In this document: positions 10,897-44,618 of the stretch, in pieces
Position numbering within the stretch: the stretch's first letter is position 1
Layout: every line of letters begins with the position of its first letter
Source of the DNA: a virus
Length of the DNA stretch: 45,087 nt
Virus record (IMG/VR): IMGVR_UViG_3300044699_000065
Coordinates: 1 to 45,087 of that record
Direction: 5' to 3' (one strand)
Notes under the pieces: generated by a model
What the model saw: the letters and a program-made list of their open reading frames with translations, nothing else
Told to the model about the DNA's origin: nothing
Database searches by the model: none
Translations under genes and position numbers: made by a program

Positions 10897-11235
10897 ATGA
10901 AACTCGCGAACATGAAACTCGATCCGGCCGCGCGGACGCCGACGTCGCAAGCGTATCCGGCGCCGCCGGATCAGCGGCCGATGTATCCGTACGGCCTCGA
11001 GCTCTCGCTCGATCAGGATGCGCTCAAGGCGCTCGGCCTCGTCGACGCGCTGCCGGCGGTCGGCGCGAGTCTGAAACTGTCGGCGCTCGTCGATGTGACC
11101 TCGGTCAGTGAGAACGAGAGCGCCGACGGCGGGAAGAGCTGCAACGTGCGGCTCCAAATCACCGACCTCGGGCTCGAGGCGAAGGCGGCGAAGAAGAGCG
11201 ACGCCGAAGTCATCTACGGCAAGGGGAAGGAGTAG
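10897..11235 (+). CDS. Capsid-staple-like small virion protein
   Basis: 112 aa. Two ATG codons stand at 10894 and 10897; GGAGG at 10886-10890 is better spaced for the second. MKLANMKLDPAAR, then YPYGLELSLDQDALKALGL, a VGASLKLSALVDVTSVSENES strand pair and NVRLQITDLGLE. This layout (short linear N-terminus, 'YPYGL-I-L', a small beta barrel with 'V-LQITDM-L') matches the small podophage proteins now named capsid staple proteins; the name is from family memory and the role in this phage is inferred. Overlaps the end of the nozzle gene, so it is translationally coupled to it. Confidence 0.7.
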   Translation: MKLANMKLDPAARTPTSQAYPAPPDQRPMYPYGLELSLDQDALKALGLVDALPAVGASLKLSALVDVTSVSENESADGGKSCNVRLQITDLGLEAKAAKKSDAEVIYGKGKE

Positions 11236-11238
11236 CAC

Positions 11239-11880
11239 ATGGCCGCGTTTACCACGATGGCGATCATCGCGATTATCGCCGCCTCGTCGTCGACGGCCGT
11301 CGGCGTCACCGGCACGGTGAAAGCGGCCGGGCGGCGAAGAAAGCCGGCGCGCTGCAGCGCGAGGCCTCCGAGTCCGAGGGGGAGCTCCAAGATTGGAACG
11401 CGCAAGTCGCGGACCTGCAGGCGACCGACGCGATCGCGCGCGGCGCCGAGGAGGAGGCGCGCTTTCGCTCGAGCGTGAAGGTGATGATCGGCGGGCAACG
11501 GACCGAGCTCGCCGGATCGAATATCGATGTCGGCTTCGGATCCGCGGTCGACGTGCAGGCCGATGTCGCGTACCTCGGCGAGCTCGACGCGCTCACGATC
11601 AAAACGAACGCGGCGCGCGAGGCCTGGGGCCTTCACCGTACAAGGCCAGGACCTCAAAAAGCGCGCGGTGATCACGCGGAAGGAAGGCGTCTATCTCGAG
11701 AAGGCCGGCAACGCCGCGAACACGGCGGCGAAGTGGTCCGCGGCGGGCCAGTTGATCGGGACGGGCTCGAACCTGCTCGCCTCGCGGTATGGGTTCTCGG
11801 GCGGCGGCACGGGGGCGCGGACGATCAGCGCGAGCCGGAGCTATCAATCGCCGGCGATGGCCGGGCCGGGGCTGGGGTAG
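11239..11880 (+). CDS. Internal virion protein, gp14-like (two frameshifts)
   Basis: AAGGAG 8 bases upstream of ATG 11239. The frame changes by -1 near 11329 (GGCCGGGCGG, probably lost G) and +1 near 11626 (CCTGGGGCC, probably extra G); after both it reads to TAG at 11878-11880, giving 213 aa. N-terminus is a hydrophobic helix (TTMAIIAIIAASSSTAVGV), then Ala/Glu-rich helices (ALQREASESEGELQ, DAIARGAEEEARFRS), a GSNIDVGFGSAVDV turn and LASRYGFSG near the end. This small, helical, membrane-active protein just before a larger helical one is the pattern of the first ejection protein of T7-type podophages, which helps build the trans-envelope channel. The match is to the general pattern, not to a specific sequence. 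Confidence 0.7.
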
Positions 11881-13619
11881 ATGGCGACTGTCCGCTCCTA
11901 CGGGCCGCGGAAAGGTCTCAACGGCCGCCTTGCCGGGCGTGCGGCGCCAGGCGAGCGAGACCGCGCTCTCGACGGGCGCCGGCGCCGCGGCCGCGGACGC
12001 CGCGAAGTGGCAAACGATCGGCGACGTCGCCGGCGGCCTGGCGCAGCACGCGAGCGCGATCGTCGTCGCCGAGCAGCAGCGCGCCGACGAGGTCGCGGTG
12101 ATGGAGGCGGAGAACGCGCTCGCGCGCTGGGAGAACACGCGCCTCTATGACAGCCAGCAGGGCGCGTTCCTCGTCAAGGGCAAGGACGCGATGCCCTTGC
12201 CCGAGACCGTCGGCGCCGAATACGAAGGCGTTGCGAGCGCGCTCGAGGCCGGCCTGCACACCGATCGGCAGCGCGCCGCGTTTGCGCAGGACGCGCGCGA
12301 AGCGCGGGCTCAATCTCGACCTGAACCTCCGCCGGCACGTCGCCGGCGAAATGCAGGAGTACGAGGCCGGGGAGCTCAAGGCCTTCGTCGGCAATGGCGT
12401 CGCAAGTGCGGTCGCGAACGCGCGCGATCCGCGGCGCGTCGGCGAGGAGCTCGCCGCGGTCACGGCGAAGATTACGGCGAGCGCGCCGCGCCTGGGCCTC
12501 GGGCCGGAGGCGACCGCGGCGGCGGTCGGCGCCGCGCGCACGCAGATTCATGTGGGCGTGATCGGCCGGCTCCTCGATACCGGCGACGATCAGAAAGCCG
12601 CGTTCTATTACCACGGCGACAAAGACACGCCGGGCGCGATGGCGCAGATCGACGGGAAGGCGCGCGGCGATATTGAGAAGGCGCTCGAGGCGGGCTGGCT
12701 TCGCGGCGAGTCGCAACGCGTGAGCGATGTCATCCTCGCGGCCGGCGGATCGCTCGACGAGCAGCGCGCGAAGGTGCGCGCGATCGAGAATCCGAAACTG
12801 CGCGACGCCGTGCAGGATCGCGTCGAGCACGAGGCCGTCGTGGCGGACCGCGTCGCGCGCGAGGCCGAGGAGGCGGACGCGAGCGAGGCGACGAACCTCA
12901 TCGAAAAGAGCGGCCGGTTCGATGCGATCCCGCCGTCGCTCCTGGCGCGGCTGCCGCTCGGCCTGCGCGGCTCGCTCCGATCGTACGCGCGCGCGAAGGC
13001 GGCCGGCGTGCCGGTCGAGACCGACCTGCCGACCTACTACAGCCTAATGACGAAGGCCGGCACGGAGCCGGAGGCCTTCGTCACGGAGAACCTCCTCAAG
13101 TATCGCGGGAAGCTCGACGAGCCGGAATTCAAGCAGCTCGCCAGTCTGCAGCTCGCGCTCCGCAACGGCGAGCGCAACAAGGTGGATAAGGATCTCGCCG
13201 GCTTCCGGACCAAGAGCGACATTCTCGAGGATTCGCTCGTGCAGTACGGCATCGACCCGAAAGCGAAGGCCGGCACGGCGGACGCGAACGCGATCGCGCA
13301 GCTCCGCCGCATGCTCGATCGCCGCGTCGAGGCGGATCAGGCCGGCGGCGTCAAGGTCGACAACGTCACGATCCAGGCACATCTCGACGCGCTCCTCGGG
13401 CAAGAGACCACCATCCCGGGCTCGTGGTGGAACATCTGGCCGGGCGGGAAGTCGTTCACCGATACGAAGGGCTCGCTGCTCAAAACGCCCGCCTCGGCGA
13501 TTCCTGAAGCCGATCGTAAAGTCTACGAGCAGGTCCTCGCGGAGTCGGGGCACGAGGTCACGCCCGCGACGGTGCTCGATCTGCACCTCGAGATCCTCGC
13601 CCGCCGCAAGAAAAAATAG
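11881..13619 (+). CDS. Internal virion protein, gp15-like (two frameshifts)
   Basis: ATG immediately follows the previous TAG. Two single-base insertions (near 11911 in GGAAAGG, near 12309 in GCGGGCTC) split it; joined, it gives 578 aa ending at TAG 13617-13619. MATVRSYGPRKVSTAALPGVR, ETALSTGAGAAAA, NTRLYDSQQGAFLVKGKDA, LNLDLNLRRHVAGEMQEYEAGEL, LLDTGDDQKAAFYY, and RRMLDRRVEADQ are sequences I associate with the long, almost all-helical internal virion protein of BPP-1/Bcep22-type podophages, which is ejected with the DNA. The remainder is charged helix with no enzyme motif. Lies between the gp14-like gene and the giant polyvalent gene, the usual order of the ejection module. Confidence 0.75.
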
Positions 13620-16600
13620 ATGCCCGGCAACCTCTACGACGAGGCGCTCGAGACCCTCAAGGGCACGCCGCCCGCCGGCGCCGGGCCCGGCCGCCGCGGC
13701 GCCGGTGGAGGCGCCGCTCGCGTCTGAAGCGCGCGATACGCTGCGCACGATGGACGACGCCGGGCCAGGCGCCGATCCGCCGCTCCCTCATGCAGAGCGT
13801 CGGCACGTCACCGGACGCGGCCGCGGAATATCAGACCCTCGGCAAACAGTACAACGTGCCGGCGAGTGTGGTCGGCCGGCATCTCGACGAGTACCGCAAG
13901 CGCGCCGCGGTCGACGCGCAACCCGATCGATCGGATCGCGACGGAAACGCCGCATACCGCGGCCTGGCTCGCCGAGCATCCGGAGCACGCGGCGGTCGCC
14001 GGCGACGACCTGGCGAACCTCGGCGCGCTCGAGTGGCTCGTCACGGCGCCGGGCCGCGCGCTGTCGCAAGGCATCAATCAGCTTCGGTTCGCGCAGCTCC
14101 GGAGTCAATCGATCCTCCGCGATCTGACGCGCGCCGAGGAGGATCAGCTTCAGGCGTATCAGTATCACGGCAACCTCGGCGGCAACCTGAGCGACGACAC
14201 CGGCGGCGTCGGCGGCTGGTTCAAGGGCGCGGTGACGGGCGCCATGCGCAATCTCCCCGAACATGGCCGGCGCGTCCCTGCAAGGCCTCTACTATGGCGC
14301 AGCCGCGTCGATCGCCGCGCTGCCGGCCGTCGGTGTGGCCGAAGGCGCCGGCGCCGTCGTGCCGGGCATCGGCGTCGTGCCAGGCGCGACGATCCTCACC
14401 GCGGCCGGGGCCGCCGGCACGATGTACGGCGCCGCGAAATTCAGCGCGGAGCTCGAGGCGGGGAATGCCTTCGAGGAATTTCTCGCGATGAAAGACGAGC
14501 ACGGGCAGCCGATGGAGAAGGACGTCGCGCGCGCCGCGGCGCTCGCCGTCGGCGGCCTGAACGGCGCGCTCGAGGTCGTCGGGCTCGAGGTCCTCGCGCA
14601 ATCGATCCCGGGGATCAAAACCCTGAAGGGCGCGCTCAGTCGGCGCGCGGTGCGCGAAGCGCTGAAGTCGCCGACGATCCGCGCGGCGCTCGGCGCGGCG
14701 GTGAAGAGCTACGGCGGCACGCTGGCGAAGGAGGCCGCCGTCGAGGTCACGCAGCGCGCGATCACGATCATGGGCGGCGAGCTCGGGAAGGCCGCCGGGA
14801 TGGCGGCGCCGGTCTATCGGACGGCCGGCGACGTCTGGGCGGATCTGACGCGCGAGTTTCTCGGCTCGGTTCAATCGTTCGGGCTGACGGTCCTGCCGGG
14901 CCCGCTGATCCAGATCGCGCAGCAGGCGCGCCAGGTGCAGGCCGCGCGGAATAACGAGGCCTTTTTTTACCGCGCTCGGGAAGGCGCGACGAATTCCAAA
15001 ACGCTCGCGCGCGCGCCCGAGGCCGTCCGCGATCTGATTACGCGCGCGACGAAGGACGGGCCGATTCAGAACGTGTTCATTCCGAGCGACACGTTTCAGA
15101 CGTACTGGCAGAGCAAGGGCCAGGATCCGGCCGTCATCGCGCAACGCCTGGGGATCGCGCGCGATGCGTACGAGCAGGCCGTCACGCTCCGGCAGGACCT
15201 CGCCGTGCCGACGGCGACCTATGCGACGACGCTCGCCGCGACCGAGCATCATTCATTTTTCGCGCGCGAGCTCCGGCTGCATCCGCACGATATGAACGCG
15301 CGCGAGGCCGACGCCTTTGAGGCGACCCTCGCGGCGCAGCCGCCGGCGGCGCCGCTGGCGCCCGGGCCCGCCGCGGAGGTGCATGCGCAGCTCGTGGCGG
15401 CGGCCGTGCGCGACCTCGGGCTCACGCCGGCCGTCGCCGAGAAGTACGCGACCCTCCACGAGGCCGCCTTCGGCACGCTCGGCGCGCGTGCGCTCGAGGA
15501 TCCCGTCGCGACGTTTAAGTGCGACGGGCCTGCAGCTCGAGCGGCCCGGCGTGACGCCGGTGCAGGCGCCGGCGCTCGCGGCCGAGCCGATCGCCGAGGC
15601 CGAGGTGACCGTGCCGGCGGAGACCCTCGGCCCGTACACTGGGACGGCAACCTTCTGGGGCTATGAGCCGGGCCCGACCGGCGAGCCCATCGCGAAGTAC
15701 ACGGTCCAGACCGAGAGCGGGCCGACGCAGCTCGCCGGGCCGGACCTCGAGGCGCGCGGCTTCGCGCTGCCGGCGACGCCGGCGTTCTCAGGGATTCAGG
15801 TCACCGGCGGACGAATTGCGCCGGCGGGCGATCGCGGCGCAGACTAAGGCGAGGGAGCAGACCGATGCTGACACCGGAACAGATCGCGCAGGCCCGGGAG
15901 CTGGTGAAGAGCGGCGTATTGCCGTCCGTCGCGTTGAGACAAGTACTCCGGTCAGCCGTCGGACGACCGTCCAATCCGGACCGAACGCCGGACGCGTCCG
16001 GTTTGTCGCCGAGTCCGCCGCCGAGCGCGACGCCCGACGCGCCGAACACTACGCCGACGTCTTCGACGCCGTCCTCGCCGCCGCTCGCGAGCACGATCCC
16101 GCCGTCGATCCCGTAGCGCTGCAAGCCGAGGTGGATCAGCGCGTCGCGCTCGCCGAGAGTCTCGACGAGGACTACCGCGAGAGCGGTCACAATCCGCGGA
16201 CGCTCCTCGAGGCGATCGCCGCCGCCGGCGGCCTGAGCCTCTCTGCGGAAGAGGGTACGGCGCACCGCACGGCCGGCATGAGCGGCGAGCTCCGCTGGAT
16301 CCGCGAGGGGCAGCTCGGGCCGTTCGGCAGCTACGCCGGCGTCCGTGGCGTCTTCCAAAACGTGATACACGCGGCGGCTCGGGCCTGGCGCGGACCGGCC
16401 TCGGGCTCGACGATATGCTGCAGGCGCTCCGCCAGGATGCGCGCTTCGCGTATCTCGAGGACGTCAACGATCTGCTCGCCGCGCTCGAGGACGTCGCGCG
16501 GCTGACCGAGGACCTCGACGCGAAGGGCGCGGTCACGTTCCCGGGCACCGCGGAGCTCGCGAGCCTCGCCGGCGTCAATCAGGCGCGGATCTGGTGGCGG

Positions 16601-19600
16601 GCGCCGACGGACACGGAGCTCGGGCAAGGGCTGTTCGATGACACGCCGCCGACGCTGAAGCTGCACGTCGGCTCCCGCCTCTCGATCAAGGGCAAGGTCT
16701 GGGTCGTCGCACCGCAGGGGGAGAAGGGCTCCGCGGTGCGGAATGGGACGGTGCACCTCGTCGCGCCGGAGCGCGTCGGGCAAGAGCCGCTCGGCGGCGA
16801 GCTCCTCTCGATGACGGTGAAGGAGCTCGCGCGCCTCTACGGCGCCGGCACGCTGGCGGCGGTCGATACGCTCGACACCGGTGAGCAGCAGCCGCGGCTC
16901 CCGGGCGACACCGGCGCGGCGCGCGACGCGGAAGTCGCGACGCCCGCATTCGAGGCGCCCTTCGCGCTGACGTCCGAAGCGTCGACGCGGAAGGGCAAAC
17001 AGACCTCGCTCTTTCAATCCGCCTATCACGGCTCGCCGCATGAGTTCGAGAAGTTCTCGCTGCATGCGATCGGCACGGGCGAAGGCGCGCAGGCGTACGG
17101 GTGGGGCCTCTATTTCGCGTCGCGCCGGGAAACAGCCGAGTACTACCGCGATACGGTCTCGCGGCACGGCTCTCCGGGCTGCCGTTCACGACCGCAACCT
17201 ATCAAGGCGTCGATTACCAGTCGGGCTTCTCGCGCGGCAACCTCCTCTATAACATCGCGACGCACGGCGTCCGGCAGACCGAGCTCGATCTCGAGCGGAG
17301 TATCCGGTTTAATGAAAGCTACGCGCCGACGATGGCGGCGCTCTACAAGATCGATCTCGAGTTTGTGCGGCGCGTCGATCCCGCCGACATTACGGTCAAC
17401 GGGAAGGGCCGCGTCTACACGGTCGAGATTCCCGAGGACGAAGATTTCCTCGCCTGGGATAAGCCGGCCTCGCAACAGAGCCCGAAGGTGCAGGCGGCGC
17501 TTCGCGCGCTCGGCGTGACGTGGGCCGAGGCGACGTATCCAACGCTCGAGGAGGCGACGGGCGAGCTCGAGCGACGGATCAAGCACAACGCCTCTGTCGC
17601 GCAGGGGTGGGGCACGATCGGTACGGATATGGGCGACCTGCTCGCTGAAGGCCTGGCGCTGGCGCGCGCCGGCAACGAGGGCGCTTTTCGCGCGTGGTAC
17701 GACGTCCAGAAGAATCAAATGGGGCACACCGACCTCGATCCGAGGGGGAGCGCGATCTATACGGCGCTCTCCTACGGGCACTCGCGCGAGGTCACGATTC
17801 AGTCGTCGGTCGGACCGTATAGCGGGATGCAACCGAGCGCGCAGGCGGCCAGTGAGGCGCTCGCCGCGCTCGGCGTGGCCGGCATCCGGTATCTCGACGG
17901 GAACAGCCGTACCGCCGGCGAGGGCTCGAGCAATTACGTCGTCTTCGATGATCGCCTCGTCGACATTACCGAATTTTTCCAATCCTCCCGCCCGACGAAT
18001 CTCGAGCAGCTCGAGGCCGACGGCTACGATCTGACGCGCCAGTACTATCACCAGACGGCCGCGGCCGCCGTCGAAGCGATTACAACCGAAGGCTTCGATC
18101 TGACGAAGGCGCGCGCGCGGCTCTCGGACGAACAAGTGCCGGACGGCGTGTTTCTCAAGCCCGATCAGAAGAACATCGGCGTCGGCGCGACCGGCCTGCC
18201 AGGTGACGAGGTCGCGCAAGTGCCGGTGTTTCTCCGCATAGGGAAAACGTGGAAGTTTGCCGATCGCGCGGCGCTCGAGCGCAACCTCAGCCAGGATCCC
18301 GAATACGCCGAGCTCGTCGCCGAGGCGCGCGCCTATGACAAGGCGCAATCGGTCGAGTTCGATCGGATCTGGAATGAGATGCGCGAGCTCGACAAAACCG
18401 ACGGCGGCCGCGAGCATAAGGCGCACAAGCTCGAGGTGGGCCTCGACGCGTTCATGGATGAATGGAAAGAGGGCAACGTCGAGCGCGCGACGGTTGCCCC
18501 GCGCGCGCGCGACGGCGCTCCTGAAAGCGGAAGGCGTCGAAACAGTCATTCTCGAGAAGGATCAAGGCGGCTTTAATCGGGTGACGCAGACCATCATCGC
18601 GATCGGGCAGAATCAGATCGCGCTCGCGAACCCGGGGCAGGAGCGCGTCCTGTTTCAGCCGGCGGTCGTCGCGCCGCCGTTCTATTCCCGCCTCACGCGC
18701 ACGGTGACCGAGTCGACGCTCGCGAAGGCCTCCGGTGCGCAGTGGCAGGCGACGATCAAGAACGCGAAGATCGGCACGAACAAAGACGAGTTCGCGTACG
18801 CGAAGCTCGAGGACCTCGAGCCCGGCACGGTCTATACGAAGGCGGACGTGCTCGCGTACCTGGCGGCGAACACGCTCGAGGTGACGCCGGTCATCCTCGA
18901 GGGGGAAGGCAACGGCTTCGAGGCGGAGGTCGACGACGACGCGGTCGAACAGGAGGCGGAGTACCTGCGCGAGGCGTTCATCAACGACAAGATGGACGAC
19001 TACGAAGACGACGGCGACGACGGCGTCGGCCAGGCGGAGGCGCGCTATAACGAGGACGAAGAACAATGGGAGGCCTTCGTCGGTGACGAGGACGTCGGCG
19101 GCTACTACACGAGCGAGCGGCGGGCGCAGCAGGCGGCCGACGAGCGGGCGGACGAGCTCCGCGACGCCGGGCGCGACGCGCGGGAGCGCGCCCATCGCGA
19201 ATGGCTCGAGGGGAAATACGACGTCGATTACTTCCGCGACGAGGCGCGCGAGCGGCTCGAGGAGCAGGCGCGCGAGGACAATCCGGAGGTCGACAACCCG
19301 AACGCGACGCACTACGGCGAGTATGTCGAGCCGGGCGTCGCGCAGGATTATAAGGAGGTGTTTCTCACCGTCGGCGACGTCGTGGCGAAAACCCCATACC
19401 CCGGCGATGCCTACGTGATTACGGAAGTGCCGGACGGCGACGCGGTTGCGTATGACGTCACGCAGGCCCGCGACAATTTCCATCGGCGCGTCGAGACTCT
19501 GGCGGAGGCGAACCGCCTCGTCGCCGCGGCGAAGCGTTCGATCGCGAACATGGTCGAGGTGCGCGGACCTGGCACGACGGGCACGACCCGTACGACGGCA

Positions 19601-22600
19601 TCCGCAATCCGATCGTGCGGATCCGGTTCAACTCCCGCCTCACCGCGGACGGCCGGCGCATGCTGTTCCTCGAGGAGGTCCAGACGCCGCAGCCGCAAGA
19701 GTTCGCGAAGATGCCGGCGCTCCTGCAGAAAAACTGGCGGCCGATCGCGTTCAAGTGGGCGCTCCGCTACGCCGTCGATAACGGCTTCGCGGTGCTCGGC
19801 TGGACCACCGGCGCGCAACAGGCCGCGCGGTATTCCCTCGAGAAGGAAGTGAAGGGGATCGAATGGGGCGAGCCGACCTCGAGCCCGTCCCAGAAGGCCG
19901 CCGCGCGCGCGTACGTCAATATCACGATGATCCGCGGCACAGCGATCGGGGTTTTATGTCGGCGCCGATGGCCGGATCCTCGAGGGCGATGCCTCCGCGC
20001 AGGCGGAAGCCTGGGCCGGCGCGCCGCTCGAAAACGTGATCGGGGAAAACGCTCGCGGAGAAGATTCTCGCCGAGCCCGACGGCACGATCGCCGGGGAAG
20101 GCCTGAAGATCGGCGGCGAAGGCCTCGCGCGCCTCTACGATGTCGATTTCAAAAACGTCGTGAACGCGATCGGGAAAAAGTACGGCGCGAAGGTCGAGGG
20201 TGTGGCGATGGATATGCCGCACGCGGGCCGGTCCGTCGCCGAGCTGGACGCGGATATGAAGGAAACGCGCGAGTACGGCTTCGAGGCGGTGCAGGATCCC
20301 GACGAGCGCGAGCGGTATATACAGAGTCGCATTGCTGAGTTGCAGCGTCAGCGCGACATCGCGCAGGCGCTCGAGGCCGCCGGCGGTCTCGAGCAGCCGG
20401 CCGTCACGATCACGCCGGAGCTCGCGACGGCCGTCAGCGGCGGGCAAGCGCTCTTCCAAGCCGCGCGCGACGATCGTCGCGGCAGCCTCCGGTTCGGGCC
20501 CGATCGGCAATTCACGCTCTCGCTGTTCGCGAAGGCGGACCTCTCGACGTTCCTGCACGAAAGCGGGCATTTCTTCCTCGAGGTGTTCGGCGACACCGTC
20601 GACCGCCTGCGCGCGCTCGATCCGGCGACGCTCGTCGACACGCAACGCCGGCTGATCAGCGACTACGACGGCCTCCTGGCGCACCTGGGCGTCGCCTCCC
20701 GGGGCGAGCTCGGGACGGCGCAGCATGAAACATTTGCGCGGACGTTCGAGGCGTACCTGATGACGGGCCAGGCGCCGAGCCTGGCGCTCCGGTCGACGTT
20801 TGCGACGTTCCGCTCGTGGCTCGTCGGGATTTACAAGTCGCTCCGCGGGCTCAACGTCGAGCTGAGTCCGGCGATCACCGGCGTGCTCGATCGGCTGCTC
20901 GCGACCGATCAGGCGATCGCGGAGGCCGAGGCGGAAGGCGCCTATACGCCGCTGTTCACCGACGCGCGGTCGGCCGGCATGAGTGACGCGCAATTTGCGC
21001 TCTACCGCGAGACCGTCGCGCAGGCCTCGACGAGGGCGCAAGAGATTCTCCAGACGAAGCTCCTCGCCGAAGTCGAGCGCGTGAAGACGGCGCGCTGGCA
21101 TGAGGAGCGCGAGGCGATCCGGACGACGGTCGAGGCCGAGCTCCATCGGTCGCCGGTGTATGTCGCGCTGAGTGCGATCCGATCGGGCACGGCGCCGAAT
21201 GGCACGTCTTTAACCGAGGGCGATCCCGAGCCGATGCCGCTGTCGCGCCAGGCGATCGTCGACGAGTTCGGCGCCGGCCGGCTGAAAACGCTCCCGCGGC
21301 CGTATGTCTACCGGAGCGCCGGCGGGCTCACGCCGAGCCAGGCCGCCGAGCTCTTCGGGTTCTCGAGCGGCGACGCGCTGCTCACGGCGATCGCCGCGGC
21401 GCCGCCGCTCGCGACCGCAATTAAAGACGAGACCGATCGCCGGATGACGGCCGCTCATCCGTCGATGCTGCTCGATGGCACGCTGCACGAGAAGGCGCTC
21501 GCCGCGCTGGCGAACGACTCCCGCGGCGCCGTCATCCGCGCCGAAATGAAGGCGCTCGCCGAGCTCCGCCGGACGGTCGCGCCGCACGAGGCGCTCGTGC
21601 AGCAGCGGGCCGATCAGGCGCACGCGTACGAGACCCGCTGGCTGGATGCCGAGCGCAAGCTGACGCAGGCGATCGCCGCCGGCAAGCACGCGAGCGAGAT
21701 TGACGCGCTCGAGGACGAAGTCGCGAACCTGAAACGGAAGGCGCGCGGCGGGCCCGCGGTGATTGCCGGCGCGATTCCGCCGGTGAGTCTGATCGAGGCT
21801 GCGGCGGTCGACCGGATCGCCGGCCTGCGGATCGCCGACATCAAGCCGGCGCTGTATTGGTCCGCGGCGCGCCGCGCGAGTCAGAGCGCGATTGACAATG
21901 CCGCGCGCCAAGATTTCGATGCCGCGATCACGGCGCAGCAGCAGCAGCTCCTCAACCTCGCGCTCTATCGGCACGCGACCGATGCGCTCGCGGACGTCGA
22001 GCAGCGCGTCGCCGCGGCGAAGGCGCTCGGCACGCCGGCCGCGCGCAAGCGCCTCGGCCTGCGCGACGCCGCGGACCTGGCGCAAGTCGACGGCGTGCTC
22101 GATCGCTATCAGTTTACGGAGGTGAGCGGGAAGGCGCTCGCGCGGCGGATCTCGCTCCGCGCCTGGGCGGACGCGAAGGCGAAGGCCGGGTTTGCGATCG
22201 ATCTGCCCGACGAGGTGCTCGACGACGCGCGCCGCGTGCATTACAAAGAGCTCACGTATGACGAGCTCGTCGGCGTCACCGACGGCCTGGCGCAGATCGT
22301 CCATGTGTCGCGGCAAAAGAACACGCTCGCCAAGATGCAGGACCTCGCCGACTTCACCGCGGCGCGCGATCGCCTGCTCGCGTCGATCCTCGCGCACACG
22401 AAAGCAACGAAGGCGCCGCTCGAGTTCCGGGGCGTCGACCTGGCGCGGCAAAAGGTCGCGATGGGGTTCGCGGCGCACCGCAAGATCGCGCTCCTCGCGC
22501 GCGCGATGGACGGCCACGAGGACGGCGGGCCGATGTGGGCGCTCGTCAATGTGTTGAACAATGCCGCGAACGCGCAGCAGGAGCGGAACAAGGTCGAGGG

Positions 22601-24474
22601 CAAGGCCTATTTCGCGATCCTCGAGCGCTACTATCCGGGCCGGCAGCTCGGGCTCCTGAAGCAGAAGGTCTACATTCCCGGGATTGATGGCAGCCTCTCG
22701 CTCGAGGGGCGCCTGGCCGTCGCCTTGAACTACGGATCGCAGCAGGGGCGCGATCGGCTGACGAACGATCCGACGCGCAAGTGGTCCGCGGCCGGCGTGC
22801 GCGCGGTGCTCGAGACCCTCACCAAGCGCGATTGGGATTTCGTGCAAGCGACCTGGGATTTTAACGATCGCTTCTGGCCGGAGATTGCGGCGAAGCAGGA
22901 GCGCGTCGTCGGCGTCGCACCGGACCGCGTGATCCCGCTCGAGGTCGATACCAAGTTTGGCCCGTACCGCGGCGGCTACTATCACCTCGCCTATGACCCG
23001 GATCTGAATCCGGGCGCCGCCGGCCACGAGACCATCGCGGCCGCGACGCTGAACATGGCGGCCGGGTACGTGCGGGCGACGACGCGGCGCGGCCATACGA
23101 AGGCGCGCGTCGATGGCGTCCAGCTCTCGGTCAAGCTGAACCTGAGCGTCGAGTTTGCGCACATCGCGGAAGTCATTCACGACCTGACTCATCACGAGGC
23201 GCTCCGCGACGTGACGCGCCTCCTGCGCGATCCGAAGATTGCGCGCGCGATCTACGAGACCCGCGGGCCGGCGGTGTATCGGCAATTCACGACCGCGCTC
23301 GAGGACATCGCACGCGGGACGAACGTCACGCAGAATTTTATCGACAAGGCGGCAACGTGGATGCGCACCGGCACGCAGGTCGCGGCGCTCGGCTGGTCGT
23401 TCTGGACGACGTTTGCAGCAGCCGCTCGGGCTGTTCAACGGCATGAGCCGCGTCGGCGGGAAGGATGGCGTCGCGGTCGGCGTGAAGTATGTGACCCGCG
23501 GCCTCGGGCGCTGGCTCAAAGACGCCGCGACGATGCAGCATACCGTCGCGTGGATTACCGAGAAGTCGCTCCTGATGAAGCATCGCACCGACACCGGCAC
23601 GCAGGACCTCGCCGATCTCCGAACCGCGCTCAAGCGGCCGGGCGGCTGGTTCGATACGCTCGTGCGCACGGTGAGCCGCGACACCCTCACGCAGCAGGCG
23701 ATCCTCGATAGTTACCTCTGGATGATCGGCCTCGGGCAGCGCGTCGCGGACGTGCCGACCTGGCTCGGCGCCTACGAAAAGGCGATGGATCAGGACGCCG
23801 AGGGGCGCGAGCTCGAGGCGCACGAGGCGCGCGCCGTCGCGCTCGCCGATCAGGCGGTGCTCGACAGCCAGGGCGGCGGGCAGATCAAGGACCTCGCCGC
23901 GGTGCAGCGCGGCGGGGGCGCCGCGAAGGCCTGGCTCGCGTTCTACAGCTACGGCAATACGGTGCTCAACGCGACCGCGGACGTCGCCGGGCAGACCAAT
24001 TTCAAATCGCCGGCGGCCGTCGCGACGTTCCTCGGGCATCTCTCGCTCCTCTATCTCTTGCCGGCGCTCGGCACGGTGACGCTCGGTCGGCTCCTCGGCC
24101 GGCGCGGCGGCGCCGATGACGATCCGGAGGCGTTCCTCGTCGACGTCGGCCAGGAAGTCCTCTCGAGCGCGATGAATGGCGTCGTGCTCCTGCGCGAGCT
24201 CACGCAGCTCGTCGGCGATGGGACGCGCGGCTACGCCGGGCCGTCGGGCGCGCGGTTCATTCAGACGCTCTATCAGCTCGCCGCGCAAGTGAAGCAGGGC
24301 GAGGCTGACGAGGGGCTCTGGAAAGCGGCGAACGCCGCCGGCGGCATCCTCTTCCGGTATCCCTCGGCGCAAGTGCAGCGGACGATCGACGGCTGGATCG
24401 CGCTGGATGAAGGCCGCACGACGAATCCCGGCGTGCTTCTCGTCGGGCCGGCGCCGGCGCGGCAGGCGAACTAA
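13620..24474 (+). CDS. Giant polyvalent ejected protein (ART-like, zincin-like, LPD-type domains; 13 frameshifts)
   Basis: ATG 13620 follows TAG directly. Thirteen inferred single-base indels (extra bases near 13686, 13762, 13921, 14254, 15527, 15808, 18499, 19952, 20043, 23412; lost bases near 16373, 17163, 19566) break it; ignoring them the frame chains exactly to TAA 24472-24474, ~3615 aa. Visible parts: Ala/Gly-rich hydrophobic segment ~200-330; ADP-ribosyltransferase-like motif at ~1132 (AYHGSPHEFEKFSLHAIGTG, GWGLYFA); a second substrate-type segment ~1470 (YYHQTAAAAVEAI); a module with GWTTGAQQAARY ~2060; a zinc metallopeptidase motif ~2310 (FLHESGHFF = HExxH, with ETFARTFEAYLMTG downstream as possible third ligand); long helices; and a C-terminal ~380-residue LPD38-like block (RTGTQVAALGWSFWTTF). 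This matches the polyvalent proteins described by Iyer, Aravind and colleagues, injected early to alter the host. Enzyme activities are predicted from motifs only. Confidence 0.75.
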
Positions 24475-25412
24475 TGCCACGCGACAAACGCCAAAAGCCC
24501 GGCCTCCGGTTTCCGCTCCATTACGCGGACGGCTCGAAGGTGATCCTGCCGGGCGGCGGGAGCGGCGGCGGGGTCGGGCCCGCGGGCCCGCCTGGGCCGG
24601 CTGGGCCGATCGGACCCTCGGGCGGGCCGGCCGGGCCGGCCGGACCGACGGGCGCGACCGGGGCGACGGGCGCGACGGGGTCCGCGGGGGGCGCCTGGCG
24701 CGACCGGCGCGGCGGGTCCGACCGGCGCCACGGGGCCGACCGGCGCCACGGGTGCGACGGGCGCCGCCGGCGCGGCGGGGGCGCCTGGCGCAACCGGCGC
24801 TACGGGCGCGGCCGGCGCGGACGGCCTGAGCCCGTTTGTGCCGTGGAGCACGATCACGGCGCCAGTCGATGCCGATTTCGCCTGGGTGAATCAGGGCAGC
24901 GCGGTCGTCGATACGACCTTCGGCGGGATCCATTTGAGCTGTCCGCGGAGGCGAGCGGCGGCTTTCACATCCGGAAAAAGGCGGCGCCGGCGACGCCGTA
25001 CACGATCACGGCGGGCTTTATTCCCGATCCGCTCATCTCGAATTTTCATACGGTCGGGCTCTGTTTTCGGGACGCCGGCGGGAAGCTCGGCACGTTTAGC
25101 CTGCAAGGGTATGACGGCGCGATTCCTGGCCTGAACATCGGCGCGCACAAGTACAACTCGCCGACGAGCTACAGCGGGACGTACCTGAGCCGCGGGTACA
25201 GTCCGGGGGCCCTGCTCTGGCTCCGGATTGCGGACAACGGCACGAATCGGATCTGCTCAGTCTCGGGCGACGGCGTGCACTGGCGCGTGTTCCACACGAT
25301 CGGCCGGACGGATTTCCTCACGGCGACCGAAGTCGGGTTTTTTCTCGACGTGACGGATTCCGGCGTCCTGCACGGCACGGGCATTACGCTGGTGTCGTGG
25401 CTGCAAGCGTAA
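24474..25412 (+). CDS. Collagen-like tail fiber (two frameshifts)
   Basis: ATG overlaps the previous TAA (TAATG). One extra G near 24696 (in a run of six) and one lost base near 24936 (GGATCCATTTGAGC) put the middle in another frame; joined, 312 aa ending at TAA 25410-25412. Residues ~1-35: basic start and GGG linker. ~35-120: about 27 Gly-X-Y triplets (GPAGPPGPAGPIGPSG, then GATGATGATG), a collagen-like trimeric shaft. ~120-312: a globular end (LSPFVPWSTITAPVDADFAW, GLCFRDAGGKLGTFSLQGYD, WLRIADNGTNRICSVSGDG, HTIGRTDFLTATEVGFF) that looks like a jellyroll domain measuring one-dimensional 'spectrum-like' short beta strands, typical of fiber tips. Likely host binding. The triplet shaft could also slip naturally, but both breaks are single bases. 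Confidence 0.75.
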   Translation: MPRDKRQKPGLRFPLHYADGSKVILPGGGSGGGVGPAGPPGPAGPIGPSGGPAGPAGPTGATGATGATGSAGGAWRDRRGGSDRRHGADRRHGCDGRRRRGGGAWRNRRYGRGRRGRPEPVCAVEHDHGASRCRFRLGESGQRGRRYDLRRDPFELSAEASGGFHIRKKAAPATPYTITAGFIPDPLISNFHTVGLCFRDAGGKLGTFSLQGYDGAIPGLNIGAHKYNSPTSYSGTYLSRGYSPGALLWLRIADNGTNRICSVSGDGVHWRVFHTIGRTDFLTATEVGFFLDVTDSGVLHGTGITLVSWLQA

Positions 25413-25634: not shown

Positions 25635-26198
25635 ATGGATACCTCAACCTTAAGCGGCGGCGTACTGATCGCGGCGATCGCGACGGCGCAGATTCTCCTC
25701 CTCGCCGCGATGCAATCCTGGGCGGCCGCGCGCAAGGATAAGCGCGACGCGGAACGGAAGAGCCTCGAGAAGCAGGAGGATTACGCGCGCCAGGACGTCG
25801 TCGCCGAGCGGGTGACGACGGCCGCGAAGCAAGCCGCTGAAGCCGCGCGCCTGCTGGTGACAGCGAACGAGGAGGCGAAGCTGCGCACCGACGAGGTCGC
25901 GCGCCTGGCGGCGACCTCGCAACGGAAGACCGTCGAGGCGCTCGCGAAGATCGATGAACAAACGCAAAAGATTCACACGCTCGTTAATTCCGACATGACG
26001 GCGGCGCGCACGAACGAGCGCGATACGCTGGTCCGGCTGCTCGCGGCGCTCCGGAAGGTCGACGGCGGCACGCCGGGCGAGCTCGAGGAGCTCGTGAAAG
26101 TGGAGAAGCGGATCGAGGAGCTCGGGATCATCCTCGCGGATCGCCTGGCGGCGCAGAACGTCGTCGACGCGCAGGCGAAGAGCGCGCGGATCGTGTGA
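25635..26198 (+). CDS. Single-TM coiled-coil protein, possible holin/spanin-type accessory
   Basis: 187 aa, AAAGGA 5 bases before ATG 25635. One N-terminal membrane segment (residues ~8-27, GGVLIAAIATAQILLLAAMQ) followed by a long charged coiled coil (KDKRDAERKSLEKQ... AAKQAAEAARLL... TNERDTLVRLLAALRKV... LEELVKVEKRIEEL). The topology (short N-terminus out or in, large helical cytoplasmic or periplasmic part) resembles i-spanin or holin-associated proteins, but there is no specific motif. Residues 8-47 and the last ~20 codons are duplicated in the patchwork block at 26210-26666. Confidence 0.75.
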   Translation: MDTSTLSGGVLIAAIATAQILLLAAMQSWAAARKDKRDAERKSLEKQEDYARQDVVAERVTTAAKQAAEAARLLVTANEEAKLRTDEVARLAATSQRKTVEALAKIDEQTQKIHTLVNSDMTAARTNERDTLVRLLAALRKVDGGTPGELEELVKVEKRIEELGIILADRLAAQNVVDAQAKSARIV

Positions 26199-26209
26199 TG
26201 GAAAAATAA

Positions 26210-26666
26210 AGTAGGCTCGAAGGGCATGGCAGCGGATCAGATCTGTCGCCGCGGCGGCTTGAGCGCGCTCCTTCTCGCGCTCCTCGCCGCGGCGTGTGTC
26301 TCGAGGCCCTTGCCGCCGCCGGTGATCCTGCCGCCGCCGGTGCAGGTCGGCGATGCCGTCTTCGATTACGTCACCGTCCACTCGCCGCGCGACGAGGAAT
26401 GGCCGCGCAAGGCGCACGACGCGATGGATATTCGCGACGGCTTCGAGAATAACGGGAAGCCGTTTCCGGGCGTGCAAGGCGGCGTACTGATCGCGGCGAT
26501 CGCGACGGCGCAGATTCTCCTCCTCGCCGCGATGCAATCCTGGGCGGCCGCGCGCAAGGATAAGCGCGACGCGGAACGGAAGAGCCTCGAGAAGCAGGCG
26601 CCTGGCGGCGCAGAACGTCGTCGACGCGCAGGCGAAGAGCGCGCGGATCGTGTGATGGAAAAATAA
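26210..26666 (+). repeat. Patchwork duplication of three neighbouring gene segments
   Basis: A net 457-bp insertion flanked by a 68-bp direct repeat (26142-26209 = 26599-26666). Inside, in order: 26211-26352 copies 26702-26843 (142 bp); 26351-26478 copies 27646-27773 (128 bp, one synonymous mismatch at 26468, G for T); 26478-26598 copies 25656-25776 (121 bp); then 26599-26666. All copies are in the same orientation; junction overlaps are 0-2 bases. Removing 26210-26666 restores a simple arrangement in which the TM-coil gene is followed by the lipoprotein gene. Could be a replication template-switching event or an assembly/amplification chimera. Confidence 0.9.
26226..26666 (+). CDS. Chimeric ORF made by the patchwork: lipoprotein signal + barrel fragment + TM coil
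   Basis: 146 aa open frame created by the duplication. Residues 1-42 equal the lipoprotein start at 26717 (lipobox LAAAC, Cys24, then Pro-rich linker); 43-84 equal residues 311-352 of that lipoprotein; 85-124 equal residues 8-47 of the 25635 protein (TM segment and first coil turns); the last 22 residues are out of frame relative to their source. The first two junctions both keep the source reading frames. If real and expressed, it would be an outer-membrane or periplasmic lipoprotein with a second membrane segment. It may equally be a non-functional by-product or an assembly artefact. It carries the same upstream bases from 26211 as the parent gene, so the same weak ribosome site. Confidence 0.45.
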   Translation: MAADQICRRGGLSALLLALLAAACVSRPLPPPVILPPPVQVGDAVFDYVTVHSPRDEEWPRKAHDAMDIRDGFENNGKPFPGVQGGVLIAAIATAQILLLAAMQSWAAARKDKRDAERKSLEKQAPGGAERRRRAGEERADRVMEK

Positions 26667-26681
26667 TCTTTAGATCTAGCA
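26661..26681 (+). promoter_or_regulatory. 21-bp element shared with 42046-42066, upstream of lipoprotein gene
   Basis: Exact 21-bp match to 42046-42066. It contains ATAATCTTTAGATCTAGC, including the 8-bp palindrome TAGATCTA. Weaker likeness continues downstream (TCGGATC...GTGCCC here, TCGGGTC...GTGCCC there). Both copies lie 35-40 bases before the start of an accessory gene, in A/T-rich sequence unlike the surroundings. A promoter or regulator site is the simplest reading, but no clear -35/-10 pair is visible. Confidence 0.55.
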
Positions 26682-26716
26682 GGTCGGATCAGGCGTGCCC
26701 TGTAGGCTCGAAGGGC

Positions 26717-28216
26717 ATGGCAGCGGATCAGATCTGTCGCCGCGGCGGCTTGAGCGCGCTCCTTCTCGCGCTCCTCGCCGCGGCGTGTGTCTCGAGGCCC
26801 TTGCCGCCGCCGGTGATCCTGCCGCCGCCGGTGCAGGTCGGCGCCGTCGGGATCACCGTCACGCCGGCGATCGCCGACGTCACGGTGCACGTCGGGCCGA
26901 CGAGCTGCCTCACGAACGGCGACGGGAAAGCCTATTGCGTGCCGGTGCCCGTCGGCACGTATGTCCTCACCTTCTCCGGCATTGACCTCGAGCGCTACGC
27001 GGTCGCCGCCGAGGCGGCCGTCATGGCGACGGTCACCGCCGGCCAGAATACCGAGGTTGTCGCCGCGTACCGCCGGCTGCAGACCGCGGCGGTGTTCGCC
27101 GGCCGGATCCGGCGCGCCGGCCGCCTGTTTCAGACGGAATTCGGCGTGCCGTGGTCGTGGAATTTCGCGACCGAATTCCTCCTGCTTAACGATTACCTCG
27201 ACGGCGGACCGCGGGCGATCGACGCGGTGCTCGACGACATCATCGCGGCCAGGCAGAACGGCGTCCGCATTATCGGGATGGCGCATTGGATCCCGATCAA
27301 CGAGCGGGGCTCGCCGGAATTCCGCCCGAGCACGTACGGCGATCGCTACTTCACCGGCCTGAGCGCGCTCGCCGATTACCTGCAGAGTCGCGGCCTGTAC
27401 TTTGAGTTTACGGCCCTGGCGGATACGCCGTACACGATGCCCGAGCCGCGCGATCAGCGCGCGTTCATTGAGCGCGTCGCCGGCATCCTCTCGAGCAAGC
27501 CGAACGCCTTCCTCGAACACTGTAACGAGCCGTACGACACCGATAACCGCTGCGGTGAGGTGATCGCGCTGGGGCGCGCGCCGGGCTCGGTGCTGCAGGC
27601 GAGCGGCAGCGACGGCGTGCGCGAGCTCAGTGATCGCTACGTGCTCGATGCCGTCTTCGATTACGTCACCGTCCACTCGCCGCGCGACGAGGAATGGCCG
27701 CGCAAGGCGCACGACGCGATGGATATTCGCGACGGCTTCGAGAATAACGGGAAGCCGTTTCCTGGCGTGCAAGTGCCGCTCGTGCTCGACGAACCGATCG
27801 GCGCCGCGGACGTGGCGAACCCGGGCAAGCGCGCGAGCGATCCGAACCTCTTCCGGCAATACGGCGCCGCCTCGGTCCTGTTCGGATCGGGCGCGACGTT
27901 TCACAGTAACGACGGCGTCGCGACGCGGCCGTTCTCCGCCACGCAGAAGGCGGCACAGGTCGCCTTTAGCGTCGGCGTCAATGCGATTCCGGCCTCGGTC
28001 TCGACCTGGCGCTACAACCGCGGCGGCCTGAGCGGCATGCCGATCGCTCACAGTGACGAGCTCGCGCTCCGGACCTTCGCGAAAATGCAGGGCCCGGTCG
28101 CGTATGTCGTGGTGATCGGCCGTCAGCCGGGCTGGCGCCTCATTCTCGAAAACGGCTATTCCTGCGCGCCGCTCGTACCCGAGGGCGACGTGCTCATCTG
28201 CGAGCGCGCGGCGTAA
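26717..28216 (+). CDS. Lipoprotein with glycoside-hydrolase-like TIM barrel
   Basis: 499 aa. Residues 1-24 are a lipoprotein signal (RRGGLSALLLALLAAAC, lipidated Cys24), then a Pro-rich stretch (PLPPPVILPPPVQ), a small Ig-like domain ~43-120 (VTVHVGPTSCLTNGDGKAYC, VPVGTYVLTFSG), and a barrel from ~130. The barrel shows the clan GH-A pattern: strand-end NEP with Glu271 as candidate acid/base and LDEP with Glu359 as candidate nucleophile; GVPWSWNFATEF opens it and TALADTPYTM lies on a mid strand. Related phage and bacterial barrels share 'NEP' and 'NDEPMGA' signatures. Substrate unknown. As a lipoprotein it would sit in the host envelope, where it could change surface glycans, act in lysis, or block superinfection. 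Upstream lies the 21-bp shared element. Confidence 0.75.
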   Translation: MAADQICRRGGLSALLLALLAAACVSRPLPPPVILPPPVQVGAVGITVTPAIADVTVHVGPTSCLTNGDGKAYCVPVPVGTYVLTFSGIDLERYAVAAEAAVMATVTAGQNTEVVAAYRRLQTAAVFAGRIRRAGRLFQTEFGVPWSWNFATEFLLLNDYLDGGPRAIDAVLDDIIAARQNGVRIIGMAHWIPINERGSPEFRPSTYGDRYFTGLSALADYLQSRGLYFEFTALADTPYTMPEPRDQRAFIERVAGILSSKPNAFLEHCNEPYDTDNRCGEVIALGRAPGSVLQASGSDGVRELSDRYVLDAVFDYVTVHSPRDEEWPRKAHDAMDIRDGFENNGKPFPGVQVPLVLDEPIGAADVANPGKRASDPNLFRQYGAASVLFGSGATFHSNDGVATRPFSATQKAAQVAFSVGVNAIPASVSTWRYNRGGLSGMPIAHSDELALRTFAKMQGPVAYVVVIGRQPGWRLILENGYSCAPLVPEGDVLICERAA

Positions 28217-30290: not shown

Positions 30291-30343
30291 TGGTGCGCCC
30301 GCCGCGACTTGAACGCGGGACCCTCGGCTTAGAAGGCCGACGC
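30291..30343 (-). other. attP core: 3' half of tRNA-Arg(UCU)
   Basis: On the minus strand this reads as the anticodon arm, variable loop, T arm, acceptor 3' strand and CCA of a tRNA: anticodon stem-loop GCCGA-CTTCTAA-style loop (loop 30329-30335, anticodon TCT), T stem CGCG/CGCG with TTCAAGT loop (30302-30318), acceptor CGGGCGC (30295-30301), discriminator A and CCA (30291-30293). The 5' half (D arm and acceptor partner) is absent, so it is not a functional tRNA but the identity segment of a tRNA-targeting attP. Integration would rebuild the host tRNA-Arg gene. The intact core shows the sequence is the free, unintegrated form. Confidence 0.8.
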
Positions 30344-31495
30344 CACAGCACGCAATCTGCTGAGTTTAATCGACTTACGGCGCCGGCCAACTTTGGCGGC
30401 CAACTTTCCGCCGGATTCCTGTACTCGCGGCGTCGGCGCGGCCTTGAGCTGCGCCTGGCGGAGTTTCGTCAGCGCCTTGTCGAACGCGGCGACGGCCGCG
30501 GCGTCGACCTCTTGGTTCGCGGCGTCGGTGTAGCGGGCCGTGCACTTCGATCCCTTCGCATGGACGCCGAGCCGGCCGACGGTCGCGAGGTCGTGCGTGA
30601 CGCGGTAGATCTGGGATAGGAAGGTGTGCCGCGCGTCGTACATATGGACGCGCTTTGGATCGAGGCCGGCGCGCTTGCATCCGCGTTTGAAGCAGCGATT
30701 GAGCGCGCCGGTATTGAAGGGGCCGTACGCATTGGCCGCGTGGAACGCCTTGAAGGCCGCCAGGCCGTCGGGCGTCAACTCGAGGGTCCGGGCCTTGGCG
30801 CCCTTCCCTTTGGTCCTCGCCTCGACTCTGACGCTGCCCTTGCCGGTAAGGATGAGGTCGTGCGGCAGGATCTTTTTGAGGAGCGCTTGCGGGATGCCGG
30901 CGTACGCGATGACGCGCGCGCGGATCTTCGAGAGGCTCGTCTGTTTCGGGAGGCCTTTCTTCGTGCCCTTGCGGACGTCCGGCATCGCGGCGATCGCGCG
31001 CTCGAGCGCGGCATAGCCGATGTCGCGGGGCTCGGCCTCGGGCGGCTCGGGATTATAGGCGCCCTTCGTCGGGCTGACCTTCGTCGGATACATCAACGAG
31101 TAGAACGCGCGGAGCGCGGTGAACCGATGCCGCACGGTTTGAGGCTTGAGCGTTTCGTGAAGGCCTTGCAGGATGATGTCGATCTCCGCGGTGGTGACGG
31201 ACATCGGCGGCCGGTTCGCGCCGAGCTCGTGCGCCCATGCCTCGAGGTGCATCTTGCGCTCTTTGAGGGTCGGCATGTTCTTCCGGCGCTGCAGGTAGAC
31301 CTTAACCTTCTCGGCCAGGCCGCCGCCGGCGTCCGGCGTGCCGCCGTACTTTTCGATCTGTTCCTCTTGCCAGGCCTTCCGCTCCTCGAGCGGCGTCGCG
31401 AAGTCGAAGGTCTCGGTGTAGAGGTGCCCGTTGACACGCTGGTTCACCTCCCATTTGCCGCGGCGGATGCGCTGGCCCTTGAGTCTACGCGCCAT
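30329..31495 (-). CDS. int: Tyrosine-type site-specific integrase
   Basis: 388 aa from ATG 31493-31495. N-terminal arm/core-binding part (residues ~1-140: KWEVNQRVNGHLYTETFDFA, then helices ending TALRAFYSLM), catalytic part from ~190. Seen: the basic hairpin (RTKGKGAKARTLELTPDG), box II YDARHTF with Arg in an unusual Y-D-A-R rather than H-x-x-R setting, and LGVHAKGSKCTARYTDA with His and the nucleophile Tyr. The box I Arg is not evident: AGIPQALL stands where TGLRxxEL is usual, as in a subfamily of phage integrases I have seen. The last codons lie inside the attP core and the stop TAA is the TAA of the tRNA anticodon loop; the arm repeats 30385-30407 encode KLAAKV. It overlaps the upstream RHH gene by 11 bp. 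Confidence 0.88.
   Translation of the reverse strand: MARRLKGQRIRRGKWEVNQRVNGHLYTETFDFATPLEERKAWQEEQIEKYGGTPDAGGGLAEKVKVYLQRRKNMPTLKERKMHLEAWAHELGANRPPMSVTTAEIDIILQGLHETLKPQTVRHRFTALRAFYSLMYPTKVSPTKGAYNPEPPEAEPRDIGYAALERAIAAMPDVRKGTKKGLPKQTSLSKIRARVIAYAGIPQALLKKILPHDLILTGKGSVRVEARTKGKGAKARTLELTPDGLAAFKAFHAANAYGPFNTGALNRCFKRGCKRAGLDPKRVHMYDARHTFLSQIYRVTHDLATVGRLGVHAKGSKCTARYTDAANQEVDAAAVAAFDKALTKLRQAQLKAAPTPRVQESGGKLAAKVGRRRKSIKLSRLRAVASAF
30385..30407 (+). repeat. Right pair of integrase arm-type repeats (inside int)
   Basis: GGCCAACTTT at 30385-30394 and 30398-30407, 13 bp apart, same orientation as the left pair. These lie within the integrase coding sequence near its C-terminus, so protein-coding and DNA-binding roles share the same bases. 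With the left pair they frame the core almost symmetrically (about 113 bp and 42 bp away). Confidence 0.68.
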
Positions 31496-42615: not shown

Positions 42616-42894
42616 ATGGCGAGCTTCACGACGCTCGCGACGTTCGGCCTCAATCACCTCTTCCATAAGAAAGGCCCGCCCGTGAGCGCGCCGGCGCCGA
42701 CGACGCCGCTCGGCGCGCCGGCGCCGCCGGATGCGCGCCTGGCCGCCTCGAGCGGCGTCCTGAGTGCGCAGCTCGCCGCGAAAAAGGCGCGCAAGCAAGC
42801 CGCCGCCGGCACGGCGGCCTCGCCGCTCATGCCGCTCCTGGGCGGCACACCGCCGACGGCCGGCGGCGCGCGGAAAGGGCTGATCGGCTACTGA
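42616..42894 (+). CDS. Small disordered head-region protein
   Basis: 92 aa, ATG directly after the previous TGA. FTTLATFGLNHLFHKKGPP is a helix-like start; the rest is Ala/Pro/Gly-rich and flexible (APAPTTPLGAPAPPD), with KKARKQAAAG in the middle. Short proteins of this style lie between terminase and portal in related phages. Ends in a TGATG overlap with the portal gene. Confidence 0.65.
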   Translation: MASFTTLATFGLNHLFHKKGPPVSAPAPTTPLGAPAPPDARLAASSGVLSAQLAAKKARKQAAAGTAASPLMPLLGGTPPTAGGARKGLIGY

Positions 42895-44618
42895 TGGCCT
42901 TGCCGTATCCGCTCACGTCGACGAAGCGTCAACGCCTGCAGCAGCTCGGGCAGGCGCTCTGGACCGAGCGCGGCACGTTCGATGCCCATTACCGCGACCT
43001 CGCCGACTTCGTCAAGCCGCGGCGCCTCCGGTCGATGACGAGCGATCGGAACAAGGGCGACAAGCGGAACCAAAAGATCATCGATTCGACCGCCGGCTTC
43101 GCGCACCGCACGCTCGCGAGCGGCCTGCATGCGGGCCTCACCTCGCCGGCGCGCCCGTGGTTCATTGTCTCGACGCCCGATCCGGCGCTGAATCGCGTGC
43201 CGGCGGTCAAGGCCTGGCTGCACGAAGTCGGCGATCGCATGCGCTCGATCTTCCAGCAGACGAACCTCTACAACGCGCTGCCGATCGTGTACGGCGATAT
43301 GGGCCTGTTCGGCACGGCGGCGATGGGCATCCTACAGGACGGGCGCGATCTGTTCCGGACCTACACCTATCCGATCGGCAGCTACGCGCTCGGCGTCAAC
43401 GCGCGCGGCCTCGTCACGACGTTCTATCGCGAGCTCGAGATGACGGTCCGCCAGGTCGTCGAGAATTTCGCGGTCGTGCCGGGCATGCGCGATCTCGACT
43501 GGTCGCATGTCTCGCAGCGCGTCAAGGACCAATGGGAGCGCAGCCAGTACGAGGCGACGGTGGACGTGTGTTGGATCGTGCTGCCGAACGAGGACGCGGA
43601 TCCGAGCCGCGGCGAGTCGCGCTTCAAGCCGTTCGCGAGCGTCCACTACGAGAAGAGCACGACGGACGCCGCGGCCGGGTGTTTGCGCGAGGCCGGGTAC
43701 GACACCTTCCCGATCTTGTGTCCGCGGTGGGACGTCACGAGCCACGAGGATACGTACGGAACCGATTGCCCGGGCATGACGGCGCTCGGCGACGTGCGGC
43801 AACTCCAAACGCAGCAGAAAAAAAAGGGCCAGGCGATCGCGAAGATGGTCGAGCCGTCGCTGGTCGGCTCGACGTCCTTAATGACGCAGAAGGTCTCGCT
43901 CCTCCCGGGCGATATCACCTACGAGGAGCCGGTGCACGGCTACGCCGGCCTCCGCTCGATTCACGACGTGCGGATCGACCTGTCCCATCTGACGGCCGAC
44001 ATGCAGGAGGTCCAGTACCGGATCCAACGCGCGTTTTACGAGGACCTGTTTCTCATGCTCGCGAACGACCGCCGGCAGCAGCCGGCGACCGCGCGCGAGA
44101 TTGACGAGCGCCACGAGGAGAAGCTGCTCGCGCTCGGGCCGGTGCTCGAGCGGACGAATGACGAGCTGCTCGATCCGCTGATCGATCGCACGTATGCGCT
44201 GATGGTCGAGGCGCGCCTCGTGCCCGAGCCGCCCGAGGAGCTCGACGGTGTCACGCTGAAGGTCGAATACATTTCGATTCTCGCGCAGGCGCAGAAGCTC
44301 GTCGGCGTCGTCAGTCAAGATCGGTTCCTGAACACGCTCGCGTCGCTCGCGCAGACCTTCCCCGAGGCGCGGCACAAGCTCAACATCTTCCAAGTCATCG
44401 ACAACTACGCCGATATGCTCGGCGTCGATCCGCGGATCGTGCACACGAACGAGGAGGCGCAGGCCGCCGCGCAGCAGGCCGCCGAGGCGGCACAGGCCGC
44501 GCAGGATGCCGAGACCGCGAAGTCCCTCGCGAGTGCCGGCAAGAGCGCCAGTGAGACCTCGCTCGAGGGCGACACGGCCCTGTCGCGGATGATGCAGAAC
44601 GTCGGAGCGGCCGCATGA
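42894..44618 (+). CDS. Portal protein (head-to-tail connector)
   Basis: 574 aa from ATG 42894. KRQRLQQLGQALWTERGTFD, YRDLADFVKPRR, HRTLASGLHAGLTSPARPWF, YGDMGLFGTAAMGI, RTYTYPIGSYALGVNARG, YDTFPILCPRWDVTSHEDTY, GMTALGDVRQLQ and the C-terminal PATAREIDERHEEKLLALGP are characteristic of podophage head-to-tail connectors (T7 gp8 type). Twelve copies form the channel at one head vertex through which terminase packages DNA. The end is an Ala/Gln-rich tail. Normal length, no break; ATGA overlap with the next gene. Confidence 0.92.
   Translation: MALPYPLTSTKRQRLQQLGQALWTERGTFDAHYRDLADFVKPRRLRSMTSDRNKGDKRNQKIIDSTAGFAHRTLASGLHAGLTSPARPWFIVSTPDPALNRVPAVKAWLHEVGDRMRSIFQQTNLYNALPIVYGDMGLFGTAAMGILQDGRDLFRTYTYPIGSYALGVNARGLVTTFYRELEMTVRQVVENFAVVPGMRDLDWSHVSQRVKDQWERSQYEATVDVCWIVLPNEDADPSRGESRFKPFASVHYEKSTTDAAAGCLREAGYDTFPILCPRWDVTSHEDTYGTDCPGMTALGDVRQLQTQQKKKGQAIAKMVEPSLVGSTSLMTQKVSLLPGDITYEEPVHGYAGLRSIHDVRIDLSHLTADMQEVQYRIQRAFYEDLFLMLANDRRQQPATAREIDERHEEKLLALGPVLERTNDELLDPLIDRTYALMVEARLVPEPPEELDGVTLKVEYISILAQAQKLVGVVSQDRFLNTLASLAQTFPEARHKLNIFQVIDNYADMLGVDPRIVHTNEEAQAAAQQAAEAAQAAQDAETAKSLASAGKSASETSLEGDTALSRMMQNVGAAA

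Follow-up and report, generated by a model that had tools for sequence, protein, structure and literature searches.

Local direct copies form a patchwork in the lysis-like region of a BPP-1-like podovirus record: a probable artefact of sequencing or assembly

The record and the patchwork locus

The window analyzed here is the whole of IMG/VR record IMGVR_UViG_3300044699_000065 (45,087 bp), which represents a BPP-1-like podovirus. Its portal and major capsid genes (Table 1) are accompanied by tail genes, a gene for a giant internal protein, a fibre gene that includes a collagen-like stretch, a lysis-like region, and an integrase gene. The best-matching related phages share 40-58% identity with it in the giant protein. 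The gene order suggests that the genome is circularly permuted and nearly complete, and that it was cut within a small tandem repeat at its ends. The two ends of the record (1-31 and 45060-45087) lie in a 15-bp tandem repeat within an apparent scaffolding-protein gene, located between the portal and capsid genes. A 1586-aa ORF (3695-8455) carries a tail-tubular-A-like domain about three times in its C-terminal part (6860-7280, 7475-7690, and 7694-8314), and a similar protein of 1444 aa is present in relatives such as G015. Positions 30294-30353 on the minus strand, where the integrase gene has its 3' end, give a weak tRNA match (Rfam, 30.5 bits; none by ARAGORN). This is probably the attachment site of the phage, a copy of host tRNA sequence like that in BPP-1.

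The patchwork lies between two intact genes of the lysis-like region, from which all of its pieces derive. The product of the first, a 187-aa protein with an N-terminal transmembrane (TM) segment and a coiled coil, is spanin-like by architecture only, and no relative of it was found in phages, IMG/VR, or the related loci. The second encodes a 499-aa putative lipoprotein with a LAAAC lipobox identified by eye; it has no family match and no relative in phages, plasmids, IMG/VR, or GTDB genomes, and its AlphaFold model, built without an alignment, is uninformative (pLDDT 35). By eye only, NEP and DEP motifs in this protein recall glycoside hydrolases. DNA and protein searches of phages, plasmids, IMG/VR, and GTDB genomes returned no close relative that carries the patchwork site; consequently, there is no empty counterpart with which to compare it, and relatives neither confirm nor exclude the patchwork.

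Comparison of maximal matches resolves the 457 bp at 26210-26666 into one extra A followed by four pieces copied in direct orientation. The four copies, of 142, 128, 121, and 68 bp, lie exactly where a preliminary description of this DNA had placed them, except that the first begins one base later than the 26210 given there: the A at that position matches neither the flank nor the source, and the leftward extension of the first match is zero. The joins overlap, in order, by 0 (plus the extra A), 2, 1, and 0 bases, within the range described earlier, and the one synonymous difference also stands, with CCG at 26468 in place of CCT at source position 27763 (a G/T difference, both codons specifying Pro). 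This is the only mismatch in the 391 bp of pieces 1 to 3, and the copies show no indel differences. The patchwork thus holds no new sequence, all pieces being copied from the neighbourhood.

The same interval can be read as two flanks that overlap by 68 bp, the left flank running to 26209 and the right flank starting from 26142, with 389 bp of filler between them that consists of the stray base and three direct copies with sources within about 1.5 kb. No other direct or inverted repeat of at least 40 bp was detected in the 45,087-bp window (20-base seed), and a chance origin of the copies is therefore excluded. DNA secondary structure at the insertion is not unusual (z = -0.59) and is not indicated as a cause.

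Table 1. Coordinates of the patchwork, its source genes, and related features of the record
Feature	Coordinates	Strand	Description
Major capsid protein gene	677-1822		E 4e-136
Frameshift-rich stretch	10570-24950	+	One-base indels (about 14) where relatives are intact; giant Bbp10-like gene and neighbours split
187-aa protein gene (TM-coil)	25635-26198	+	Intact; N-terminal TM segment, coiled coil
Left copy of 68-bp stretch	26142-26209	+	3' end of TM-coil gene with its stop codon, plus the next 11 bp; last part of left flank; identical to 26599-26666
Single A	26210	+	Matches neither flank nor source
Piece 1, copy of 26702-26843	26211-26352	+	Upstream region, start codon, and lipoprotein signal of 499-aa gene; 142/142
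146-aa fusion ORF	26226-26666	+	Spans patchwork; 42 + 42 + 40 aa in source frames, then 22 aa out of frame
Piece 2, copy of 27646-27773	26351-26478	+	Inner part of 499-aa gene; 127/128, synonymous difference at 26468
Piece 3, copy of 25656-25776	26478-26598	+	N-terminal TM segment of TM-coil gene; 121/121
Right copy of 68-bp stretch	26599-26666	+	68/68 identical to 26142-26209; runs on into right flank
499-aa putative lipoprotein gene	26717-28216	+	Intact
Portal gene	42894-44618		Head-tail_con, E 2e-142

Frameshifts upstream of the patchwork

The patchwork starts about 1.3 kb past the last traceable frameshift of a stretch in which the reading frames of the record are repeatedly broken. In the relatives that span the region corresponding to 13.9-24.46 kb (at least 15 loci), a single uninterrupted frame of about 2,500-3,800 aa covers this interval and the neighbouring genes are intact, while in the record the frame of the same giant gene changes repeatedly and leaves at least nine segments. 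In addition, the tail-nozzle gene is shifted at 10570, the lysozyme-like gene at 12287, and the fibre gene at 24690 and about 24930, and another shift lies at 11631, which brings the total to about 14. Eight shifts could be placed well, the remaining ones being identified from frame changes only; all eight are +1 and lie at or beside a run of at least three identical bases, and five of the eight are at runs of four or more, compared with an expected 5-7%. Outside the stretch, 13.3 kb of coding sequence is free of shifts, and the probability that all would fall inside the stretch by chance is about 1e-4.

These frameshifts look like locally uncorrected indel errors in the consensus rather than the decay of genes. 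The broken segments contain no stop codon in 4,562 in-frame codons and retain about 30-67% identity to relatives, as intact genes do, which argues for read errors; gene decay is further disfavoured by the placed shifts being single-base gains at homopolymers. The indel rate of the stretch, about 97 per 100 kb, can be set beside the approximately 23 (polished) to 474 (unpolished) per 100 kb reported for viral long-read assemblies and the fewer than 2 per 100 kb reported for short reads scaffolded with long reads (PMC6487183). Proteins predicted from 10570-24950 of this record are not to be trusted.

The reading frame across the patchwork

The first two joins keep the reading frame, as had been described, and the resulting ORF follows its source frames through the lipoprotein signal, the middle fragment, and the TM segment before the last join takes it out of frame. 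Domain shuffling had been among the origins proposed earlier for such an arrangement, and a chimeric gene of 146 aa, expressed and useful, would account for the preserved start region and the two in-frame joins. However, simulated local mosaics, in which piece 1 was kept and the remaining pieces were drawn at random from the neighbourhood, yield an ORF of at least 146 aa in 18% of cases (P 0.18) and read through three pieces in 30%, so that two in-frame joins of three and an ORF of this length are within chance. Long chance frames are common at the high G+C content of this DNA. The final 22 aa are out of frame, the lipoprotein signal and the TM segment come from two different proteins, and no relative of the fusion or of its two source genes was found in the related loci. 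The fusion ORF offers no evidence of selection and is a chance fusion; a selected chimeric gene is thus most improbable, and the proposal of domain shuffling is not borne out.

Neither the same patchwork nor a different one was seen in 3.1 Mb of related loci, where the preliminary description had suggested looking, and the patchwork junction was not found in IMG/VR. The long exact repeats examined in relatives are not patchworks; they belong to protein-repeat genes, to a noncoding repeat beside a tRNA-like end (locus L098), and to an apparent duplication of a tRNA pair (locus L109). The last of these is an exact 222-bp direct repeat at L109 20483-20999, beside a related prophage in Methylobacillus rhizosphaerae.

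Origin of the patchwork and comparison with known systems

The joins without homology, the use of local sequence only, and the single orientation leave gap bridging, a single odd molecule, or real end joining as origins to be considered. We regard it as probable, on circumstantial grounds, that the patchwork is an artefact of sequencing or assembly and absent from the phage DNA. Two contig ends sharing just 68 bp may have been left unmerged, and the gap between them could then have been filled by reads, or parts of reads, drawn from the neighbourhood. Such bridging would duplicate the 68-bp overlap and leave both neighbouring genes intact; the same outcome could arise if a single chimeric molecule was taken into the consensus where coverage was thin. 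Bridging of unmerged contigs would explain together the duplicated 68 bp, the unharmed neighbours, the sizes and orientation of the pieces, the stray base, and the single mismatch. False gaps are known to arise where overlapping contig ends stay unmerged (PMC4091766), and gap closing is known to introduce misassemblies (PMC9575681).

Several observations support an artefact. The record is error-rich, with its approximately 14 frameshifts clustered, absent from relatives, and, where placed, associated with homopolymers. Homology at the joins does not exceed that of random joins in the same stretch (mean 0.86 bases). The filler is local and in scaffold orientation, its pieces are of plausible read size, and one mismatch in 391 bp with one stray base fits filler of single-read quality. 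An artefact also fits the lack of any new sequence in the patchwork and the lack of patchworks among the related loci examined. The preliminary description, which weighed template switching, domain shuffling, and a chimera, had likewise leaned toward an artefact, partly because the piece lengths are close to those of short reads. That lean is supported here by the frameshifts, the joins without microhomology, and the overlapping flanks, but the argument from length is weaker than it appears: a short-read contig could not keep a patchwork of longer pieces, and short pieces are expected either way.

Other points count against an artefact. A plain de Bruijn assembler does not make joins at overlaps of 0-2 bp unless reads carry them. 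The traceable frameshifts end before the patchwork is reached, and beyond it follows an unbroken gene of 1.5 kb. The copies lack indel differences, although such a complete absence would occur in about 41% of cases at the local error rate. Finally, local pieces in one orientation also fit a real local rearrangement (through template switching, or through duplication with deletion), to which we give roughly one chance in four.

About as much weight falls on the narrower possibility that the patchwork is the product of a microhomology-free replication or end-joining event, in which four chained local template jumps placed a mosaic exactly between two lysis-region genes, made a new ORF from parts of them, and left both unharmed. 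If this took place in one step, as is somewhat less likely, four template switches within about 1.7 kb during replication or break repair would have returned synthesis to a point 68 bp upstream of its exit and inserted 457 bp between the two genes. The closeness and shared orientation of the pieces (P ~4e-5 if ligation partners were drawn at random from the genome), the near-perfect identity expected of a single recent event, and the intactness of both adjoining genes are consistent with this; moreover, the joins must derive from some sequence, most simply if the molecule existed. It is disfavoured by microhomology at chance level, by the absence of a similar patchwork in relatives, and by the demonstrable errors of the record.

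A real tandem duplication spanning about 1.66 kb (from 25656 to 27773, not counting the insert) and three later deletions, which removed 35, 802, and 365 bp of redundant DNA, would give exactly the observed order of the pieces, and loss of redundant DNA from a phage is plausible. Nevertheless, this path is very unlikely, as four distinct events would have had to follow one another while almost no mutations accrued (1 difference in 459 bp), and exact removal by homologous recombination would be far easier. Chance also disfavours random blunt ligation in the library, where pieces that are all local and direct would not be expected (P ~4e-5).

A real patchwork would constitute a rare and complete case of multi-step templated insertion in a phage genome and would give direct evidence for the way in which new phage genes could arise. 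If, as we consider probable, the patchwork is an artefact, it becomes a warning case, as a gene of about 10 kb broken into at least nine frames and a believable chimeric ORF would enter databases as novel proteins.

Comparison with known systems places these readings in context. The templated insertions of microhomology-mediated break-induced replication (MMBIR), known from eukaryotes, likewise consist of several pieces from nearby templates; in a tumour sample, 80% of their junctions carry 2-12 bp of microhomology, with a mean of 3.7 (PMC8421209). In contrast, the four joins of the patchwork show no microhomology beyond chance, its pieces are longer, and all are direct. Strand-displacement chimeras made by phi29 polymerase in multiple displacement amplification, before sequencing, also join segments of one molecule less than 10 kb apart, yet such joins are nearly all inverted (337 inverted and 11 direct, n = 348), and 91% of the direct ones have complementary bases (PMC1855051). 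Here all four joins are direct, none is inverted, and only one has 2 bp, which makes a phi29 chimera very unlikely. The diversity-generating retroelement (DGR) of Bordetella phage BPP-1 invites comparison, as the record is BPP-1-like and has short direct repeats after its tail genes; a DGR origin was rejected because the record has no reverse transcriptase (no RVT_1 match) and the single difference is G/T rather than adenine-specific, and the patchwork differs further in its practically identical copies and in drawing on four sources rather than one template/variable pair. Relative to assembly and gap-closing artefacts, the difference is that the step which made the patchwork is inferred. What the patchwork shares with them is the short duplicated overlap of the flanks, the nearby, read-sized filler in scaffold orientation, and the undamaged flanks on either side.
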